Source: a virus
Length of the DNA stretch: 26,526 nucleotides
Direction: 5' to 3' (one strand)
Virus record (IMG/VR): IMGVR_UViG_3300043395_002192
Location: 1 to 26,526 of that record
The translations under genes were made by a program, and so were the position numbers. How positions within the stretch are numbered: position 1 is the stretch's first letter; the number at the start of each line of letters is the position of its first letter. The notes under the pieces are model-generated. The model was not told the origin of the DNA. It searched no databases and saw only the letters and a list, made by a program, of their open reading frames with translations. Of this stretch, positions 2,126 to 22,785 are shown piece after piece.

Positions 2126-2918
2126 TCATCTTGGAAAACTGGGCAGACTTGGAAATCAGATGTTTCAATATGCCTCTTTACGAGGTATTGCTAGAAATCG
2201 TGGATATGATTTTTGCATTCCAAGCCACAATCAAGTGGTTAAGGATCCATATGGATTTGACTTGAAGATAGAATTATTTTATCCTTTTGAAATGTCTCAT
2301 GTAAGTTCACGTAATATTAAACTTCTTGATAGGGGATATGCTCCAGTAGCAGAAGAAAAACATTTTCATTTTGATGAACTTCTTTTCCATATGTGTCCAG
2401 ATGAGATTTCTCTTGCTGGATTTTTTCAGTCTGAAAAATATTTCAAACATATTGAAAATGAAATACGCGAAGACTTCACATTCAAGGACAATATTTTTAG
2501 TCCGTGTAAAGAAATGATTGATTCAATCGATGAAGCAATTAGTTTACATGTAAGACGAACTGATTATCTCCAAAATCCAAATCATACTACTTTAGATATG
2601 GATTATTATGAAAAGTCTTTATCTAAAATGGATGATAATCTTCCGATAATAGTTTTTTCTGATGACCCTACATGGTGCAAAGAACAAAAACTTTTTGAAA
2701 GTGATAGATTTATGATATCTGAGTCTAATGATCATTATGTCGATTTGTGTCTTATGACTTTGTGTAAATATCATATTATTGCTAATAGCTCATTTAGTTG
2801 GTGGGGTGCTTGGTTATCAAAATCAAATAAGGTAATTGCACCTTCAAAGTGGTTCGGTGAAGGTAATATAGATAAAAATACTAAAGACTTAATTCCAGAT
2901 AGTTGGACAGTAATATGA
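2112..2918 (+). CDS. GT11 alpha-1,2-fucosyltransferase-like glycosyltransferase (copy 2)
   Basis: Second GT11 gene, 268 residues, with GRLGNQMFQYASLRGIA near residue 10, LHVRRTDYL near 147 and NSSFSWWGAWL near 222. The first motif is identical to copy 1, and KEMIDS and WCKEQ stretches are also shared, so the two are recent paralogues with divergent middle regions. An AAGGAG site lies 8 nt before the ATG. HVRRTDYL replaces HVRRGDYL of copy 1 in the donor site, which may mean a different specificity. The order GT11-GT2-GT11 suggests sequential action on one glycan; this is inference. Confidence 0.9.
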   Translation: MLAFNHLGKLGRLGNQMFQYASLRGIARNRGYDFCIPSHNQVVKDPYGFDLKIELFYPFEMSHVSSRNIKLLDRGYAPVAEEKHFHFDELLFHMCPDEISLAGFFQSEKYFKHIENEIREDFTFKDNIFSPCKEMIDSIDEAISLHVRRTDYLQNPNHTTLDMDYYEKSLSKMDDNLPIIVFSDDPTWCKEQKLFESDRFMISESNDHYVDLCLMTLCKYHIIANSSFSWWGAWLSKSNKVIAPSKWFGEGNIDKNTKDLIPDSWTVI

Positions 2919-3709
2919 TGGATAAAAATAAATCTACTTATAAACTTAAAAATTTTGGGCCAGTATATTATTTGAATCTTGATGATCAACCAGAGAGAAA
3001 AGAGTATATGGAAGATCAATTTAAATATTGGGAAATAGAAAACTATACTCGAATTTCTGCATACGATGGTAGAAACGATGATCTAAGTGATATTATTTCT
3101 GGTAGGTATCCTGAAATGATGACTTCAGGTGAAATTGGATGTGTTACGTCTCATTTGAAAGCAATTAATCATTGGTATAATACCTCTGATAGTCCTTATG
3201 CGATTATCATGGAAGATGACTGTGATATTAGTCTTGCACATTATTGGAATTTTACTTGGTCTGATTTTATTGCAAAAGTTCCTTATTCTTGGGATGTAAT
3301 TCAGCTTGCAATTATTTGTACTGGGAATATTGTTGTTCCAATTCATACAAGATTTGTAAATGATTTTTCTACCGCATGTTATGTAATCACTAGACATCAT
3401 GCTGAAAAATTAATTAAATTCCATATTAGAGGAGAAAAATATAAATTAGATAATGGCGTAAAACCTCGTCCAGTTGCTGACGATCTCATTTATAATTCTG
3501 GATGTACATATGCGACACCTATTTTCTTGTATAAAATTGAATTGGGATCTTCTATTCATCCTGAGCATATTGATATCTTTCATAAAAATAGTTATAGTGG
3601 AATTCTTAATTTCTGGCAACAAGCTGGAGCACAAATGACATTAAATCAAATTACTGATTATGATCCATATCTTGGTAGGATCACAGAACCAACTGGCGAA
3701 GGGTCTTGA
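2915..3709 (+). CDS. GT25-family glycosyltransferase (LPS-biosynthesis type)
   Basis: The protein begins with a VYYLNLDDQPERKEYM strand typical of GT25 enzymes. GEIGCVTSHLKAINHW and the acidic AIIMEDDCDIS motif (metal and nucleotide-sugar binding) follow near residues 70-110. GT25 includes bacterial LPS galactosyltransferases. The ATG at 2915 overlaps the preceding stop, so I prefer it to an upstream in-frame TTG at 2903; an ATG at 2918 is also possible. It is the last gene of the glycan operon. Its 3' end overlaps the -35 box of the porin promoter, so there is no spacer between the two transcription units. Confidence 0.86.
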   Translation: MMDKNKSTYKLKNFGPVYYLNLDDQPERKEYMEDQFKYWEIENYTRISAYDGRNDDLSDIISGRYPEMMTSGEIGCVTSHLKAINHWYNTSDSPYAIIMEDDCDISLAHYWNFTWSDFIAKVPYSWDVIQLAIICTGNIVVPIHTRFVNDFSTACYVITRHHAEKLIKFHIRGEKYKLDNGVKPRPVADDLIYNSGCTYATPIFLYKIELGSSIHPEHIDIFHKNSYSGILNFWQQAGAQMTLNQITDYDPYLGRITEPTGEGS

Positions 3710-3739
3710 CATGCCACGATAATCATGTTAAGATAAATA
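3706..3739 (+). promoter_or_regulatory. composite sigma70 / T4-late-like promoter of the porin gene
   Basis: TTGACA (3706-3711), a 17-nt spacer and TAAGAT (3729-3734) preceded by TGT form a strong sigma70-type promoter with an extended -10. GATAAATA (3732-3739) overlaps the -10 and matches the T4-type late motif NATAAATA. The same fusion is found at psbA. It drives a leader of about 110 nt before the porin ATG. The -35 lies inside the stop region of the preceding gene. Confidence 0.75.
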
Positions 3740-3850
3740 AATCAAGTGACGAATGCCTCAACTACTTGCTGTAGTCGCTTGAACTAACGGAGTTACGTCG
3801 AAACTCCTTACATCCGCAGGTAAACTCTGCGAGAAAATATAGAGGTACTT
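3740..3850 (+). promoter_or_regulatory. structured 5' leader of porin mRNA
   Basis: The leader contains three consecutive inverted repeats. The first has inner arms ACTAC/GTAGT inside a CAAGTG/CGCTTG outer helix around 3743-3782. The second is GGAGTT/AACTCC (3789-3794 with 3802-3807). The third is CGCAG/CTGCG (3815-3819 with 3827-3831). A GAGG ribosome site then lies close to the ATG. None is followed by a T-run, so these look like mRNA-stabilising or translation-control hairpins rather than terminators. No known riboswitch class is recognised. Confidence 0.5.
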
Positions 3851-5335
3851 ATGTTTAAATCCGCTTTCGCAGCAACTCTTGCTGCAACTCCACTTGTCGC
3901 TGGTGCTGCGTTCGCAGAACCTTACGGTCCTTATGTGGATATGCCCCAAGTAACTAGCATCACTCAGTTCTCTGATGTTCGCCCTACTGATTGGGCGTAT
4001 CAGGCACTTAGCAACCTTGTAGAGCGTTATGGTTGCGTTGCTGGTTATCCTAACAGCACCTTTGGTGGTGGATCATCAATGACCCGCTATGAGGCAGCAG
4101 CACTTCTGAATGCTTGCCTCGATCGTGTGACTGAAGTTACCGATGAACTCAAGCGTCTGCAAGCTGAATTTGCTTCCGAACTTGCTGTTCTTCGTGGTCG
4201 TGTTGATAAACTGGAAACTCAGGTTGGTCAACTTGAGGCAACTCAGTTCTCTACTACTACCAAACTGCGTGGTGAAGCTTCTTTCGTTCTGGGTGGTGTT
4301 AGCAACGCTTGGACTCCTGGCGCAACTGCTAGCACGAATGTTGGTGAAACCGCATTCAACTATGACCTTCGCCTGAACTTTGATACTTCGTTTACTGGCA
4401 AAGATCTGCTTCGCACTCGTCTGCGTTCTGGTAACTTCTCAAGCCAACCTTTTGGTTCTTCTGCTTCGCTCTTCAAACTTGATAAAGCAGAATCCACTTC
4501 TGATGCCGTAAAGATTGACCGTCTGTACTATCAGTTCCCTGTTTTTACCAAGGGTCTGACTGCTACTGCTGGTCCTCTGGTTCGTAATACTGAGATTGCT
4601 TGGATTCCTTCCGCATATAAGTCGGAAATCCTTGACTTCTTCCAACTTGCTGGTGCTCCTGGTGTCTATAACAAGGCAACTGGTTCTGGTTTTGGACTCC
4701 AGTATGTTCAACCTGGTAAGAAGGGTGGATTCGTTGCTGGTGTCAACTATGTTGCTCAAAGTGGCGCTGATTCCACTAAAGGTGAGTTCAATGAAACTGG
4801 TGCTCTGAATACGATGGCACAAATCGGTTATCGTGCTCCTCAGTACGGTATTGCCTTTGGTTATCGTTATGGTACTGAAGGAACTCGTGTTCGTACTTAT
4901 AATGGCGTTCTGGGTTCTTCTGGTGTTCTTGCTCCTGGCCAAACCTCTAACGGTTATGCTCTGAGTGCTTATTGGCAACCCAAGACTTCAGGAATTATTC
5001 CTTCGGTCTCTGCTGGTTATGGTTGGAACACCGTAAGTCGCAATGCTCTGAATCAGACTACTCCTAATGGTGCTACCGATTCTCAGACTTGGTATGCTGG
5101 TCTGCAGTGGTCTGATGTGTTTGCTAAGGGTAATGGTGCCGGTTTCGCTATCGGTCAACCTGGCAACGCTGAAGGTCTGTCTAAAGATGCCCTCATGTGG
5201 GAAGCATTCTACAAGTATCGTGTAAGTGATCATATCACGATTACTCCTGCTGTATTTTATGTTTCTAACAATCAGGCATTTGCAGGTGCATCTTCTAATT
5301 ACGGAGCAGTGGTTCAAACAAAATTTACTTTTTGA
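3851..5335 (+). CDS. cyanobacterial-type outer-membrane porin (SLH domain + OprB-like beta-barrel)
   Basis: The 494-residue protein has a signal peptide of about 22 residues ending A-F-A. An SLH domain (about residues 36-95, FSDVRPTDWAYQALSNL ... RYEAAALLNACLDR) follows, then a heptad-rich coiled coil (about 93-131) and a long Gly/aromatic-rich barrel ending in terminal phenylalanine (QTKFTF), the outer-membrane insertion signal. This matches host Som-type porins that anchor to peptidoglycan-linked polymer through SLH and form pores for small solutes or iron. Codon use and G+C are visibly higher than in the neighbouring glycosyltransferases, suggesting acquisition from a host. Strong promoter, own leader and terminator make it a single-gene unit. 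It is intact in length and frame. Its role in infection (nutrient influx, receptor masking or replacement of host porin) is inference. Confidence 0.92.
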   Translation: MFKSAFAATLAATPLVAGAAFAEPYGPYVDMPQVTSITQFSDVRPTDWAYQALSNLVERYGCVAGYPNSTFGGGSSMTRYEAAALLNACLDRVTEVTDELKRLQAEFASELAVLRGRVDKLETQVGQLEATQFSTTTKLRGEASFVLGGVSNAWTPGATASTNVGETAFNYDLRLNFDTSFTGKDLLRTRLRSGNFSSQPFGSSASLFKLDKAESTSDAVKIDRLYYQFPVFTKGLTATAGPLVRNTEIAWIPSAYKSEILDFFQLAGAPGVYNKATGSGFGLQYVQPGKKGGFVAGVNYVAQSGADSTKGEFNETGALNTMAQIGYRAPQYGIAFGYRYGTEGTRVRTYNGVLGSSGVLAPGQTSNGYALSAYWQPKTSGIIPSVSAGYGWNTVSRNALNQTTPNGATDSQTWYAGLQWSDVFAKGNGAGFAIGQPGNAEGLSKDALMWEAFYKYRVSDHITITPAVFYVSNNQAFAGASSNYGAVVQTKFTF

Positions 5336-5348
5336 GTAATAAATAATA

Positions 5349-5409
5349 TTACCTGACTTGTTCGCACTTTTCAGGTAAAGATTGGAGGGCAGAAATGTCC
5401 TCCTTTCTT
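5349..5409 (+). terminator. double hairpin terminator after the porin gene
   Basis: Hairpin 1 has arms TTACCTGA (5349-5356) and TCAGGTAA (5371-5378). Hairpin 2 has arms GGAGGGCA (5384-5391) and TGTCCTCC (5396-5403) with a GAAA tetraloop and a following TTTCTT tract. The second hairpin is the likely rho-independent terminator. Confidence 0.8.
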
Positions 5410-5410
5410 G

Positions 5411-5418
5411 TATAAATA
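5411..5418 (+). promoter_or_regulatory. T4-late-like promoter box TATAAATA
   Basis: An exact TATAAATA lies two bases after the terminator tail. No convincing coding gene starts just downstream; hli begins 210 nt later. It may give a late hli transcript or a short untranslated RNA, or be a chance match in AT-rich DNA. Confidence 0.4.
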
Positions 5419-5630: not shown

Positions 5631-5840
5631 ATGACTGTAACAAAAAACGAATTTGGACAAATGAATATGTGGGCAAAAGAACCTTCTATGTACATGACTA
5701 AAGAAGATCTTGAGCGTTATGGTATTGAACCTTATGCAGAACGGGCACAAAGAGCAAATTCTAGATGGGCTATGATTGGAATTATTTCTGGTATTATTTC
5801 TTATAGTCTTACTGGAAATCTTTTCTTTGGTATCTTCTGA
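5631..5840 (+). CDS. hli: high-light-inducible protein (Hli), copy 1
   Basis: This 69-residue protein ends with AERAQRANSRWAMIGIISG and a single transmembrane helix, the chlorophyll a/b-binding-like Hli motif (E-x-x-N-x-R-x-A-M). Hli proteins sit in the thylakoid membrane, bind chlorophyll and carotenoid, and protect photosystem II during assembly or excess light. ATG 5631 is chosen because it lies just downstream of the promoter; longer in-frame starts overlap the promoter. No clear Shine-Dalgarno site is visible. The stop overlaps the next small gene as ATGA. The motif has S where the family usually has G (N-S-R instead of N-G-R). Confidence 0.88.
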   Translation: MTVTKNEFGQMNMWAKEPSMYMTKEDLERYGIEPYAERAQRANSRWAMIGIISGIISYSLTGNLFFGIF

Positions 5841-5968: not shown

Positions 5969-6091
5969 ATGAAAAATTTTGGATGGACTAAATCTGCTGA
6001 ACTTCTTAATGGAAGAGTTGCTATGCTATCATTTGTAGTCATGGTAATTGTGTATTTGAAAACTGGACAGCTAATTCCAACTATTTGGTGA
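5969..6091 (+). CDS. hli: high-light-inducible protein (Hli), copy 2
   Basis: The frame encodes 40 residues with a strong GGAGGA site 6 nt before the ATG. The sequence has the compact Hli core: GWTKSAELLNGRVAMLSFVV followed by a helix and TGQLIP, matching A-E-x-x-N-G-R-x-A-M and the conserved TGQ end. This is the canonical short phage Hli type, unlike the longer copy 1 with N-S-R. It is the last gene of the hli unit and is followed by a strong terminator. Role: photoprotection at photosystem II in the thylakoid. Confidence 0.92.
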   Translation: MKNFGWTKSAELLNGRVAMLSFVVMVIVYLKTGQLIPTIW

Positions 6092-9812: not shown

Positions 9813-9976
9813 CATCAACAGGTTAAGAAATGTAACAGGTTCTTAATGTTGTCCTCTTCCTAACCGAGACCTATGGGGAGGTTAAACACAGTCTCTCATA
9901 CCCACAATGGAGGGTGTTGTGGGAATATCTGTACCGTTCAGTTCCCCCTGAATTTTTACTTACCCTTTTAACAAAA
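9813..9976 (+). promoter_or_regulatory. psbA 5' leader with repeats and hairpin
   Basis: The roughly 160-nt leader has two direct copies of AACAGGTT (9817-9824 and 9834-9841) and a hairpin with arms CCCACAA (9901-9907) and TTGTGGG (9917-9923). No clear Shine-Dalgarno site precedes the ATG at 9977. It may control message stability or light-dependent translation, as psbA leaders do in hosts; this is inference. Confidence 0.5.
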
Positions 9977-11314
9977 ATGACTGCTACAATTTCACAACAA
10001 CGACAACTTAATACTTGGGATCAGTTCTGTGACTGGGTTACTTCAACGAACAACCGCCTTTATGTTGGTTGGTTCGGTGTATTACTTATTCCATGCCTTC
10101 TTGTTGCTACTTCAGTTTTTATTATTGCTTTTATTGCAAATCCGCCAGTAGATATTGATGGTATCCGAGAACCCGTTTCTGGGTCTTTAATGTGGGGAAA
10201 CAACATCATTTCTGGTGCTGTCGTTCCTTCTTCTAATGCTATTGGACTACACTTGTATAATCTTTGGGATGCTGCTTCTATTGATGAGGCACTTTACAAT
10301 GGGTGGGCATATCAAGCAGTAGTATTCCATTTTCTTATCGGAATTTATGCTTATATGGGTCGTGAATGGGAACTTTCTTACCGACTGGGTATGCGTCCTT
10401 GGATTTGTGTCGCTTACTCAGCTCCTGTTGCCGCTGCTACTGCTGTTTTCCTGGTCTACCCCTTTGGACAGGGTTCCTTCTCTGATGGAATGCCGCTTGG
10501 GATTTCTGGCACTTTTAACTACATGCTTGTATTCCAGGCAGAACACAACATTCTTATGCATCCTTTCCACATGCTGGGAGTTGCTGGGGTCTTCGGTGGT
10601 TCTCTTTTCTCTGCTATGCACGGATCTCTTGTCACCTCTAGTCTTGTACGTGAGACGACAGAAAATGAGTCCCAGAATTATGGATACAAGTTCGGACAAG
10701 AAGAAGAAACATACAACATCGTAGCAGCACACGGTTATTTCGGTCGCCTTATTTTCCAATATGCTTCCTTCAATAACTCACGTTCTCTGCACTTCTTTTT
10801 AGCGGCGTGGCCCGTTGTGGGCATCTGGTTTGCTGCTCTTGGTGTTTCTACGATGGCTTTTAATCTCAACGGACTGAATTTCAACCAGAGTATTCTGGAT
10901 AGTCAAAACCGAGTAATTCCTACTTGGGCTGATATTCTGAATCGTGGTGGACTTGGAATGGAGGTAATGCACGAACGGAACGCTAGATTTGTTGGTGTTC
11001 TTGCCTAGTAATAGGCATTAGTAAAATCGGGTTAAACGGGGAAACTCTCAAGTAGACAATCCCGTACCAAGTCAGAAAGGGTTTAAGTTTTCTGAAAGGT
11101 CTAACGACTAGGTAGTGAGTCCCAACAATAATCTACCCACGAATGCCCGACTCCTTAATAAACATAAGGATGAAGAGATAGTCTGAACTTACTGGTGACA
11201 GTAAGAAGTAAAGAATAAAGAGTCTTTACGGTAACATAATTGCACAATTTCCCACTTGACCTTGCTAGTGTAGAAGCAACACCAGTTGCTCTTACTGCTC
11301 CTTCAATCGGTTGA
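9977..11314 (+). CDS. psbA: photosystem II D1 protein, split by a group I intron (join 9977-10984, 11243-11314)
   Basis: Joining exon 1 (336 codons) and exon 2 (23 codons plus stop) gives exactly 359 residues, the usual cyanobacterial D1 precursor length. Key residues fall at standard positions: Tyr161, Asp170, Glu189-His190, His198, His215, Ser264 and His272; His332 and Glu333 are in exon 1, while His337, Asp342 and the C-terminal tail with processed Ala344 are in exon 2. Residue 130 is Glu, the high-light D1 form. The start is ATG 9977 ([10 protein letters not shown]); an upstream in-frame ATG at 9914 adds non-D1 residues. D1 turns over rapidly in light, and a phage copy sustains photosynthesis during infection. 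Unspliced mRNA would read seven intron codons and stop at 11008. Confidence 0.97.
10985..11242 (+). mobile_element. group I self-splicing intron in psbA (258 nt)
   Basis: Exon end GAACGCT pairs with intron GGTGTTC (10994-11000) as P1, with the conserved U-G at the splice site. P2 is TGCCTA/TAGGCA (11002-11007 with 11012-11017). P7 is GACTA (11106-11110) with TAGTC (11179-11183), in the typical contexts AACGACTA and AGATAGTC. P9 is CTTACTG/CAGTAAG with a GTGA loop (11188-11205). The intron ends with the required G at 11242. It has no internal gene. D1 reads through perfectly once it is removed. psbA group I introns are known from Synechococcus phage S-PM2 relatives. Confidence 0.95.
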
Positions 11315-11341
11315 TATAACAACTGAATATGTGATATAATT

Positions 11342-11399: not shown

Positions 11400-11996
11400 A
11401 TGGATTTGCACGAATTAGTAATAAATGAATGTGAAAGACGAGGGCTGGAACTAATATATCTTCCAGAAAAACTTGTGCGTCGTTCTACTGATGTGATTGT
11501 TAGTTGCCCTTGTACAGGAAAAAGAAATATGAGTATAAGAAACTTTATTGTGACTTATGAGAAAGGTGGTGAAGCGTTTTGCTGTAAAAGAAAATCAAAA
11601 GTTGGAAAAAACAATCCAGCATTTGGAAAACCAACTTGGAATGCTGGAACTGTTGGTGTATCAAAAAGTTATGGATTTTTTGGGTTTAAGGAGGAATGGT
11701 CTGATAGAGAAGATTATTTGTATTTTATAGAAACTACATATGGAACCTACAAAATAGGTAGGTCTTTTCACGGAATAAAATATCGTTTTACTGAAACTAC
11801 AAAAGAACTTGGTGAATGGAAAGCAACTCATAAAGAAGTATTTGATTGTGAAAGATACATATTGAACACATATAAACAATATCAAAAAAAGATTGATGGT
11901 ATAATTGGAGGGTCTGAACATTTCACAAAAGATTTGCCCATAGATAAAGTTATAGAATACGCTAATAGCAATTTGCAGAAAAATTATGTCTCATAA
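11400..11996 (+). CDS. free-standing GIY-YIG-like homing endonuclease
   Basis: The 198-residue protein has a Cys-rich N-terminal part (CPC near residue 36, CC at 61-62), then a NUMOD3-like segment VGKNNPAFGKPTWNAG (about 68-83) found in DNA-binding parts of homing endonucleases. DYLYFIETTYGTYKIGRSF (about 105-123) resembles a GIY-YIG core, with a Glu/Asn region downstream and GGSEHF near residue 170. It is not inside the intron but directly after intron-bearing psbA. A free-standing endonuclease cutting the intron-insertion site of psbA (F-CphI) has been described in related phages; whether this is the same family is not established here. Confidence 0.75.
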   Translation: MDLHELVINECERRGLELIYLPEKLVRRSTDVIVSCPCTGKRNMSIRNFIVTYEKGGEAFCCKRKSKVGKNNPAFGKPTWNAGTVGVSKSYGFFGFKEEWSDREDYLYFIETTYGTYKIGRSFHGIKYRFTETTKELGEWKATHKEVFDCERYILNTYKQYQKKIDGIIGGSEHFTKDLPIDKVIEYANSNLQKNYVS

Positions 11997-12253: not shown

Positions 12254-12916
12254 ATGAAGATCTTTTTAGATACAGCAGACGTTTCACTTATCGGTTCAGC
12301 ATACGACACAGGATTACTTGATGGTGTCACTACAAATCCATCATTAATTCTCAAAAGTGGCAGACAACTTCAAGAAGTTATTAATGAGATTGCAAATATA
12401 TTTCCAGAGTTAGAAAGCATTTCGGCAGAAGTCGTTGCAGATACTGCAGAGGAAATGCTTACAGAAGCAAAGAATTATTACACAATTTCACCAAGTGTTA
12501 CCATCAAAGTTCCTTGTACTGTAGAAGGACTGAAGGCGTGTAAGTTCCTATCAAAGCAAGGAATCAAAACTAACGTAACTTTAGTGTTCTCGGTAGCACA
12601 GGCAATTCTTGCATCAAAAGCAGGAGCAACATTCATCTCACCATTCGTAGGTCGTTGGATGGATAACTCAATTGATGGTATTGAGTTGATTAAAAATATC
12701 CGTAAGGTATTTGACCGCTCAGGTACATCTACACAAATTCTTGCAGCATCTCTTCGTGATGTAAGGCAAGTAGAACAATCTGCTCTTAATGGTGCAGATG
12801 TGGTTACAATTCCTCCAGTAGTATTCTGGGCGATGTATAAGAACATTATGACTGAGAAAGGACTGGAGTTATTCCAAAGGGATTGGGAGGAAGTTCTTAA
12901 GAGTAAGGGTGAATGA
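12254..12916 (+). CDS. talC: transaldolase, short TalC/FSA-type
   Basis: The 220-residue protein has DGVTTNPSLI (about 23-32), catalytic IKVPCT with Schiff-base Lys85, and a C-terminal segment like other small TalC proteins. Glu59 stands where fructose-6-phosphate aldolases of this fold have Gln, which favours true transaldolase chemistry (moving a dihydroxyacetone unit between sugar phosphates). It feeds the pentose phosphate pathway in the host cytoplasm. The start has no Shine-Dalgarno site, only a U-rich leader. The stop overlaps zwf by 4 nt. Confidence 0.96.
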   Translation: MKIFLDTADVSLIGSAYDTGLLDGVTTNPSLILKSGRQLQEVINEIANIFPELESISAEVVADTAEEMLTEAKNYYTISPSVTIKVPCTVEGLKACKFLSKQGIKTNVTLVFSVAQAILASKAGATFISPFVGRWMDNSIDGIELIKNIRKVFDRSGTSTQILAASLRDVRQVEQSALNGADVVTIPPVVFWAMYKNIMTEKGLELFQRDWEEVLKSKGE

Positions 12917-14238
12917 AAAACATAGTCATCTTTGGCGCAACAGGAGACTTGTGCCGCAGGAAACTTATACCTGCACTTTATGAACTGCATAAGAAGAATT
13001 TACTTCCAGAAGATTTTGTGATTACTGGAGCATCCAGAACACAACACAGTAAGCAGAGTTGGTTACACACTCTTGGTTCTTATCCAGAAGATTTTGTGAA
13101 TCGTTTGGATTATGTTGTTTGTGATTTGTCTGATTCGGAAAGTCTAAAGAAACTGAATCCAGGAGAGGATGTAACATTCTTCCTTTCAGTTCCGCCAGAA
13201 CGGTATGGTGATGCAGTTCTCAGTTTGAAATCAACAGGTTTTGTTGATGACCCGAAAACCAGTAGGGTAATTATTGAAAAACCTTTTGGTTATAATCTAC
13301 AGTCTGCAGAGGAACTACAAGCAATTGTCGCAGAAAATCTTCGTGAGAATCAGGTTTATCGTATCGACCATTATCTTGGAAAGGATACTGTAAACAATAT
13401 TCTTGCCACAAGGTTCAGTAATATTCTTCTTGAACCTCTTTGGAATCGTGATTATGTTGAGGAGGTTCAAATCTTTGCAACCGAAACAATCGGTTGTGAA
13501 GGTAGAGCACAATACTATGAAACTGCTGGTGCTGTAAGAGATATGTTACAGAACCATATGCTCCAACTCCTGGCACTAATTGCGATGGAAGCACCTTGCA
13601 AGAATAATGCAAAGGAGATTCGTAGAGAGAAGGTCAAAGTTCTTTCTGCAGCACGTCTTGGAACTAAACTGGTCTGCGGTCAGTATTCTGGATACAAGAC
13701 CGAACAAGGAGTGGATTACAACTCACAGACTCCTACATTCGTTGCTGGTGATATTTACATCGACAACTGGAGATGGCAGGGTGTTCCTTTCTACTTTATG
13801 ACTGGTAAGAAACTACCAGTATCTTGTGTGGAGGTTGTAATCAAATTGAAAGCACCACCAGTTCGTTTGTTTGATGGACATCATTATAATGACCGTATTG
13901 TGATGAGATTCCAACCTGACGCACACTTTGATATTCAGATTGATATTAAAGCACCCGGACTTGATGATAAGGTTGAGACCGCAATCTTGACTCACAAATA
14001 TCCTGAAGGTGCGATTGATGGATATGTGAAATTGTTCTATGATGCAATTAATGAAGACCAGTCACACTTCGTTCATTCTGAAGAAGTGCTAGAATCCTGG
14101 AGAATCGTTGATGAACTTCTTTGTGTTGGGGATTCTTGTCCTATCAACACAAGACCTTATTCATATTCTGGAACTTGGGGTCCAGAGAAACAAATACAAA
14201 AAATTACTAAGTGGGATTATCCACTAAAACTTGTTTAG
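12913..14238 (+). CDS. zwf: glucose-6-phosphate 1-dehydrogenase
   Basis: The 441-residue protein begins with the nucleotide-binding FGATGDLCRRK. IEKPFGYNL (about 121-129) and the active-site RIDHYLGK (150-157) follow, all diagnostic. Family length is usually about 480-510, so this is a compact phage version shortened mostly in loops and at the C-terminus. It oxidises glucose-6-phosphate to 6-phosphogluconolactone and makes NADPH. Translation is coupled to talC by an ATGA overlap with an AAGGG site upstream. It is the second gene of the three-gene operon. Confidence 0.97.
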   Translation: MKNIVIFGATGDLCRRKLIPALYELHKKNLLPEDFVITGASRTQHSKQSWLHTLGSYPEDFVNRLDYVVCDLSDSESLKKLNPGEDVTFFLSVPPERYGDAVLSLKSTGFVDDPKTSRVIIEKPFGYNLQSAEELQAIVAENLRENQVYRIDHYLGKDTVNNILATRFSNILLEPLWNRDYVEEVQIFATETIGCEGRAQYYETAGAVRDMLQNHMLQLLALIAMEAPCKNNAKEIRREKVKVLSAARLGTKLVCGQYSGYKTEQGVDYNSQTPTFVAGDIYIDNWRWQGVPFYFMTGKKLPVSCVEVVIKLKAPPVRLFDGHHYNDRIVMRFQPDAHFDIQIDIKAPGLDDKVETAILTHKYPEGAIDGYVKLFYDAINEDQSHFVHSEEVLESWRIVDELLCVGDSCPINTRPYSYSGTWGPEKQIQKITKWDYPLKLV

Positions 14239-14247
14239 GAGAAAGTT

Positions 14248-15270
14248 ATGAAAGTCGGTCTAATTGGTCTAGGACGGATGGGCGAAGGAATGTCCCGTCG
14301 TATGATGAAAGCAGGTATTGAAGTCTGGGGATATCGGAGGAATTATGACAAAGCTCAAGAAGCATACGAAAACGGATATGTTAACGGTGTTACAACTACT
14401 ATTCAAAGCCTTGTTCAAGTAGTTAAAGGAAATAATAATCCAGGCATCTTTATGATGGTAGTTCCAGCAGAAACAGTAGAGGAGACGATTGATGAGTTAC
14501 TACGATTTTGTGGTGAAGGAGATATTATTATTGATCATGGCAATAGCAATTTTAAAGACAGTCGGAAGAGAGCAGAACGTCTGGCAAAGATGGGTATCCA
14601 ATATATTGATTGTGGCACTAGCGGCGGTGTTTATGGTTTGGATCGTGGATACTGTCTTATGGTTGGCGGCGGAAATACTGCGGTCGCCACTTGTGCAAGC
14701 ATTTTTAATGCCCTCTCTCCAGACATCGACTCTGCCCCCAGGACTCAGTTTGACTCGCCTGTAACTTCTGCAGAGCATGGTTGGTTGCATTGTGGTGGTC
14801 CTGGTGCTGGACATTTTGTAAAGATGGTCCATAACGGTATTGAATATGGTATAATGCAGGCATATGCCGAAGGTTTCAACATTCTAGAAAATGCAAACAA
14901 CGGAGCACAGTATGTCAGAGAAGGAGACGCAGAAGTTGCGCCTATGGCAGATCCAGAAAGTTACTGCTATGATATCGACGTTGCTGAAGTGGCTGAGTTA
15001 TGGCGTCGCGGTAGCGTTGTTAGTAGCTGGTTACTTGACCTTACTGCTGATGTGCTGCGAAGCAGCCCACATCTTACACAATTTTCTGGTGGAGTATCCG
15101 ATAGTGGTGAGGGCCGTTGGACAGTCAATGCCGCTGTAGATCTTGGGGTTCCTGCTCCCGTCATCACTACTGCCCTTTATGAGAGATTTAATTCACGCAA
15201 TCTAGGAACTTTCGCTGCCAAGATTCTGAATGGTATGCGTTATATGTTTGGGGGTCATCACGTCCGATGA
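14248..15270 (+). CDS. gnd: 6-phosphogluconate dehydrogenase (decarboxylating), short form
   Basis: The 340-residue protein has a Rossmann motif GLIGLGRMGEGM at the start. The substrate motif DCGTSGGVYG lies near residue 125, and GPGAGHFVKMVHNGIEYG near 190 carries the catalytic Lys. It lacks the long C-terminal helical repeat of the classical enzyme of about 470 residues, so it belongs to the short class. It oxidises and decarboxylates 6-phosphogluconate to ribulose-5-phosphate with NAD(P)H. A GGAG site lies before the ATG. It completes NADPH and pentose production started by Zwf. The stop overlaps a 36-residue gene. Confidence 0.96.
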   Translation: MKVGLIGLGRMGEGMSRRMMKAGIEVWGYRRNYDKAQEAYENGYVNGVTTTIQSLVQVVKGNNNPGIFMMVVPAETVEETIDELLRFCGEGDIIIDHGNSNFKDSRKRAERLAKMGIQYIDCGTSGGVYGLDRGYCLMVGGGNTAVATCASIFNALSPDIDSAPRTQFDSPVTSAEHGWLHCGGPGAGHFVKMVHNGIEYGIMQAYAEGFNILENANNGAQYVREGDAEVAPMADPESYCYDIDVAEVAELWRRGSVVSSWLLDLTADVLRSSPHLTQFSGGVSDSGEGRWTVNAAVDLGVPAPVITTALYERFNSRNLGTFAAKILNGMRYMFGGHHVR

Positions 15271-22697: not shown

Positions 22698-22785
22698 ACA
22701 TCTATCGTTGGCTGGAATTATCAGCGGAAGTATCCATATAGGAGAAGCAACGCAAATTTACATCTAGTAAAAGAGGAAAGCCAAA

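Follow-up and report, generated by a model that had tools for sequence, protein, structure and literature searches.

Why would a cyanophage carry a complete outer-membrane porin, and where does the gene come from? Both questions are raised by the stretch of DNA analyzed here (26.5 kb, hereafter the window), an IMG/VR virus record from a T4-like cyanophage, for which the freshwater phage S-SRM01 is the best annotated match. The original prediction, made from the letters alone, read the gene as a full-length host-type porin with host-like composition and its own expression signals, standing beside photosynthesis genes as part of a host-support group.

The window encodes an intact SLH/OprB porin

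The predicted protein comprises the following parts:

3851–5335, + strand: SLH/OprB porin of 494 aa in a single open reading frame (Pfam, NCBIfam, AlphaFold2)
3968–4099, + strand: SLH domain, residues 40–83 (PF00395, 31.7 bits against a cutoff of 20.8), with an intact TRYE motif at residues 78–81
4085–4243, + strand: coiled-coil helix, residues 79–131 (AlphaFold2 model)
4256–5329, + strand: 16-strand beta barrel, residues 136–493 (AlphaFold2 model)

The NCBIfam model por_somb, 'iron uptake porin' (NF033921), matched at 290.8 bits (cutoff 100) and was covered from position 1 to 485, while Pfam OprB (PF04966, 53.9 bits, above cutoff) matched residues 99–494. AlphaFold2, given a 55-row alignment from which the S-SRM01 row was left out, returned a mean pLDDT of 80 and exactly 16 strands between residues 136 and 493 with no gap; run without an alignment, it reached a pLDDT of 35 and gave no usable model. 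The predicted fold resembles OprB, OmpM1 and general porins, and the C-terminal residue is phenylalanine in the window porin and in all 56 distinct phage copies. At the level of domain searches and model, the protein is confirmed as a complete and intact member of the Som-type SLH/OprB family, with predicted pore activity. The signal peptide, SLH domain, coiled coil, barrel and terminal phenylalanine that the original prediction had placed in one frame were all recovered.

Origin and selection of the phage porins

A full-length phage SLH porin is in itself already known, as one is annotated in S-SRM01 (Serangoonvirus; 'porin', QPX48248.1); this SLH/OprB protein is 78% identical to that of the window. 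The S-SRM01 genome paper does not mention it (PMC8557907). Searching IMG/VR yielded 267 porin relatives, showing that the gene is common among cyanophage contigs; 80 of these, 73–89% identical to the window porin, were kept. Because relatives were retrieved with peptide patterns of the window protein, distant phage copies may be missing from this set. The best host porin match reached 58% identity. When 56 phage and 103 host sequences were placed in a tree, every phage copy, including that of S-SRM01, fell into one clade with a support of 100, which adjoins a small host-porin group consisting mainly of Cyanobium. Host Som or SLH-OprB porins (Slr1841 and Slr1908 type) and OmpM1 of Veillonella share the architecture and fold of the window protein, but the host porins lie on the host chromosome, are at most 58% identical and have a GC3 of about 0.83. 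As a member of this phage-only clade, the window porin is not 'host-type' by origin.

Composition and selection point in the same direction. The porin has a GC3 of 0.318; phage psbA (0.349) and gnd (0.338) have similar values, while the median of host porins is much higher (0.83), contrary to the predicted host-like composition. The overall GC of the window porin, 0.466, is high because of codon positions 1 and 2. Pairwise dN/dS among the phage porins had a median of 0.21. Values rose to 0.49 in six barrel segments, probably loops, as against 0.17 in the remaining barrel, and the SLH domain was the best-conserved segment. No barrel strand was missing, so that the search for decay, proposed with the original prediction, found none. 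By these sequence data, the phage porins are old, long-resident phage genes under purifying selection, and recent capture from a host is ruled out by GC3 and phylogeny. Accidental carriage, in which a freshly captured host porin or a mis-assembled contig would have no role, could draw on the difference in overall GC between the porin and its neighbors. It is refuted by recurrence of the gene, which is present in the isolate S-SRM01 as well as in numerous phage contigs, together with the low dN/dS within a phage-only clade, and the phage-like GC3 and phage-specific leader also speak against it; we consider its probability negligible.

Two further observations were made in the sequence collection. 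Contig IMGVR_UViG_3300044631_000905 contains a pair of distinct full-length SLH porins (L038 and L075), separated by about 15 kb. A metagenome-assembled genome record titled Bifidobacterium breve contains cyanobacterial porin genes (L111 and L160), and this bin is probably mislabeled or contaminated.

A DUF680-type cassette at the start of the porin gene

The 5' end of the gene has a different affinity from its body:

3851–3916, + strand: DUF680-type signal peptide (MFKSAFAATLAATPLVAGAAFA), matching PF24653 positions 1–26 (E = 3.7e-4 for the isolated N terminus)
3926–3947, + strand: recombination junction between the DUF680-type start and the porin body; homology to the DUF680 leader stops at 3926 and homology to the S-SRM01 porin starts at 3947

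Cyanophage DUF680 (PhCOG173, PF24653 Phage_OMP, T4-GC 241) is a small outer-membrane protein of about 123 aa with a small barrel. It differs from the window porin in lacking an SLH domain and any sequence relation to the porin body, but leader RNA, signal peptide type and genome slots are common to both. Window positions 3797–3926 align with one DUF680 gene at 79% identity over 132 bp (E = 6e-19). Since the match of the whole porin to PF24653 (15.9 bits, cutoff 27) is confined to positions 1–29, that is, to the signal peptide, the porin is not a DUF680 member and the cassette alone is shared. The S-SRM01 porin, by contrast, has its own host-type signal peptide and leader, both unlike those of the window, and is homologous at the DNA level only from 3947 on. 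It is well supported by these alignments that the porin body in the window was joined to the leader RNA and signal peptide of a DUF680/PF24653 gene.

DUF680-type cassettes were found in 9 of the 56 phage porins. These nine do not group together when the porin bodies are placed in a tree (AU test, p = 0.011; three changes), implying that the cassette was swapped repeatedly, or else that it was gained and then lost. In the literature searched, we found no description of the chimeric cassette, of DUF680 displacement or of the leader RNA. S-PM2p169 (T4-GC 355) was considered as a candidate for the small outer-membrane protein and ruled out by its translation.

Expression signals and a structured leader RNA

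The porin gene is flanked by the following signals:

3706–3734, + strand: sigma-70-type promoter TTGACA-N17-TAAGAT (sequence pattern)
3753–3782, + strand: short open frame MPQLLAVVA* with a conserved TGCCTCAACTACTTGC element, recurring in other porin and DUF680 leaders
3779–3862, + strand: two-hairpin leader RNA (model R1), with hairpins at about 3789–3807 and 3815–3831 and its 3' end over the first codons
3841–3845, + strand: ribosome-binding site AGAGG (direct reading of the sequence)
5384–5413, + strand: intrinsic terminator (GGAGGGCAGAAATGTCCTCC-TTTCTTGT at 5384–5403; sequence)

The promoter, leader and terminator that had been proposed for the gene are thereby all located. Promoters of this type occurred in 49 of 56 related leaders, as against 14.5% of random 220-mers. 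A late promoter motif, NATAAATA, was also considered, and its 12 occurrences in the window against 13.7 expected provide no evidence for it.

The R1 covariance model was trained on 31 leaders (9 porin and 22 DUF680). An unfiltered scan of the window gave one strong match of 84.9 bits, with the runner-up at 13.8; as the window leader was itself a training row, independent support for R1 in the window comes from the local DNA alignment. Within the R1 alignment, 9 of 12 pairs showed compensatory changes and 95% of cells were paired, and the covariation score was 0.622 versus 0.218 (s.d. 0.020) in shuffles. An Rfam search of the leader gave no match up to E = 10. When 32 phage records were scanned, each had at most one copy, overlapping the start of either DUF680 or a window-type porin; many of these records had supplied training rows, and among the six that had not, five matched. 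The S-SRM01 porin does not have R1. An exact search of IMG/VR with the window leader string returned L048 only. The simplest guess for R1 is a role in mRNA stability or timing.

A conserved element TGCC[GTC]CAACTAYTYGCA, which can encode MPQLLA, is found at 3753–3782 of the window and in L002, L020, L025, L056, L163 and L187, although these leaders otherwise differ. Its flanks lengthen a stem by at least three pairs in 39 of 55 porin leaders, compared with 2 of 56 other sites. The window leader contains no Pho-box-like repeat. Porin leaders resembling that of S-SRM01, among them L050 and L020, have CTTAAG-N5-CTTAAG hairpins and TTAACC repeats near the −35 box, which could be Pho-box-like. An 11-bp YTTAA repeat was present in 25 of 56 porin leaders versus 0.4 in shuffles, a count confounded by relatedness of the rows and by the palindromic CTTAAG hairpins.

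Genome slots shared by DUF680 and SLH proteins

Three neighbors define the position of the porin in the window, where the gene order is GT11-GT25-porin-hli:

2903–3709, + strand: GT25 glycosyltransferase (PF01755, E = 3.7e-13), the upstream slot marker
5631–5840, + strand: hli gene, the downstream slot marker, also found 3' of DUF680 in L187 and L249 and 3' of six GT25-preceded porins
5969–6091, + strand: second, short hli gene, 3' of the porin in the window

SLH proteins and DUF680 have two slots in common, one between GT25 and hli and the other after tRNA-Gly. The order in S-SM2 is GT11-GT25-DUF680-DUF680-pstS. A tRNA-Gly(TCC) gene precedes DUF680 in S-CAM3 and S-RIM44, the SLH protein p168 in S-PM2 and the porin in S-SRM01 and L006; the S-SRM01 porin thus differs from that of the window in its slot as well. 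GT25 precedes 11 of the 56 phage porins, and a tRNA gene, in most cases for tRNA-Gly, precedes 33. The two hli genes downstream agree with the original prediction that the porin stands beside photosynthesis genes, but a GT25-[OMP]-hli slot that elsewhere holds DUF680 explains the arrangement better than a host-support group.

Co-occurrence was assessed in phage records. DUF680 was above cutoff in none of 25 SLH-bearing records, including the complete S-SRM01, S-PM2 and S-CREM1 genomes, and none of 24 DUF680-bearing records had a por_somb match; the window is a genome fragment, and its phage may carry DUF680 elsewhere. DSL-LC03, which comes from a lake, carries DUF680 and lacks an SLH domain. 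Both genes are absent from freshwater S-CRM01, which rules out a strict either/or. DUF680 and SLH proteins are alternatives in the records tested, and neither is required. Habitat and ancestry of a freshwater lineage could cause the exclusion, and the common slot and leader may reflect common regulation rather than common function.

A third cyanophage outer-membrane architecture was seen in the 'putative S-layer protein' S-PM2p168 and in S-CREM1_199 (L004, 5932–6771; L003, 5935–6813). Both resemble the window porin in their signal peptide, SLH domain, coiled coil and terminal aromatic barrel end, but they are 279 and 292 aa long, with a short non-OprB barrel below the por_somb cutoff.

Elsewhere in the window, the pentose-phosphate genes talC, zwf and gnd are grouped at 12254–15270, with raised GC3 as in the porin and psbA. 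The psbA gene (9841–11315) has a PhotoRC-II RNA ahead of it and a group I intron near its 3' end at 10975–11205 (Rfam), leaving a last exon of 22 protein letters at about 11245–11315. A free-standing open reading frame 3' of psbA (11400–11996) resembles GIY-YIG homing endonucleases. A glutamine riboswitch (glnA leader RNA) at 22704–22756 exceeds the Rfam gathering score.

Possible roles during infection

Taken together, we think it probable that the gene is a functional, long-resident phage porin spliced into the DUF680/PF24653 cassette and occupying the slot of that gene. Host RNA polymerase with sigma-70 would produce a monocistronic, structured porin mRNA, and the protein would be exported by Sec and inserted as a trimer by the host Omp85 machinery. 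Its SLH domains may then attach to the cell wall of the host, as the analogy with OmpM suggests (PMC10628300). Remodeling of the outer membrane by the porin during infection is plausible. With lower confidence, and slightly short of even odds, we favor as its main benefit an altered outer surface: porin and adjacent glycosyltransferases would together change the exterior of the infected cell so that fewer competing phages adsorb, while the membrane would stay tethered and permeable until lysis. Surface remodeling is preferred because barrels of very different sizes fill the slot, the neighbors are glycosyltransferases and variation clusters in a small number of barrel segments, presumably loops.

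Phage-encoded outer-membrane proteins are exemplified by the Lc porin (NmpC type) of phage PA-2 and by Lom of lambda. Lc lowers superinfection by altering the receptor porin. Phages with Lc and Lom are temperate and act through lysogenic conversion; these proteins have no SLH domain, and their leader is unrelated to that of the window. By analogy with Lc, the window porin could contribute to superinfection exclusion. The SLH gene of S-PM2 is reported to be among its earliest and most abundant transcripts, and a review has proposed that its product protects against infection or grazing (PMC2984593). A viral OmpL porin located beside glnK-amtB is likewise an environmental-phage porin and was read as auxiliary metabolism, but it is of Bacteroidetes type and belongs to a nitrogen-uptake operon (PMC8115048).

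The main rival is nutrient uptake, with the porin as an auxiliary metabolic gene that would let more phosphate, iron or other solutes through the outer membrane during phage DNA synthesis. The curated family is named 'iron uptake porin', an slr1908 mutant of the host relative is low in iron (PMC8707739), OmpM1 is a nutrient channel (PMC10628300), and the whole barrel is kept. DUF680, too, adjoins pstS in S-SM2 and has been tied to phosphate limitation (PMC6224464); yet a protein of 123 aa that also fills the slot is too small for a wide pore. With a leader devoid of Pho-box-like repeats and with glycosyltransferases and hli genes rather than transporters as neighbors, this role is possible but, on balance, doubtful. 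Envelope support, in which the porin would chiefly act as a tether between outer membrane and cell wall and so hold the infected cell together up to lysis, is unlikely: DUF680 occupies the same slot without an SLH domain, and host cells already have several SLH porins. It is nonetheless consistent with the strong conservation of the SLH domain and its intact TRYE motif, with the tethering function of the homologous OmpM (PMC10628300) and with the retention of SLH domain and coiled coil beside only a short barrel in S-PM2 and S-CREM1.

Surface remodeling leads to a broader and more tentative proposal, which we hold to be possible rather than probable. The locus might be a modular site for cyanophage outer-membrane proteins under a previously undescribed cis-regulatory RNA, with unrelated barrels (DUF680, SLH with a short barrel, and the full SLH porin) exchanged by recombination around the signal peptide, as each would remodel the host surface. 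In S-TIM4, DUF680 was lost during passage on WH8102, and the gene was broken repeatedly in laboratory evolution; this shows the benefit of DUF680 to be conditional.

An intact phage porin in the cassette of another phage membrane-protein gene suggests that the host outer surface may be rebuilt routinely during infection. DUF680 is among the commonest cyanophage genes of unassigned role, occurring in 456 phage records; a PhoH relative occurs in a similar number of cyanophage records (458). A recognizable porin with the slot, leader and signal peptide of DUF680 would link this family to outer-membrane remodeling, and makes the question of its role testable.
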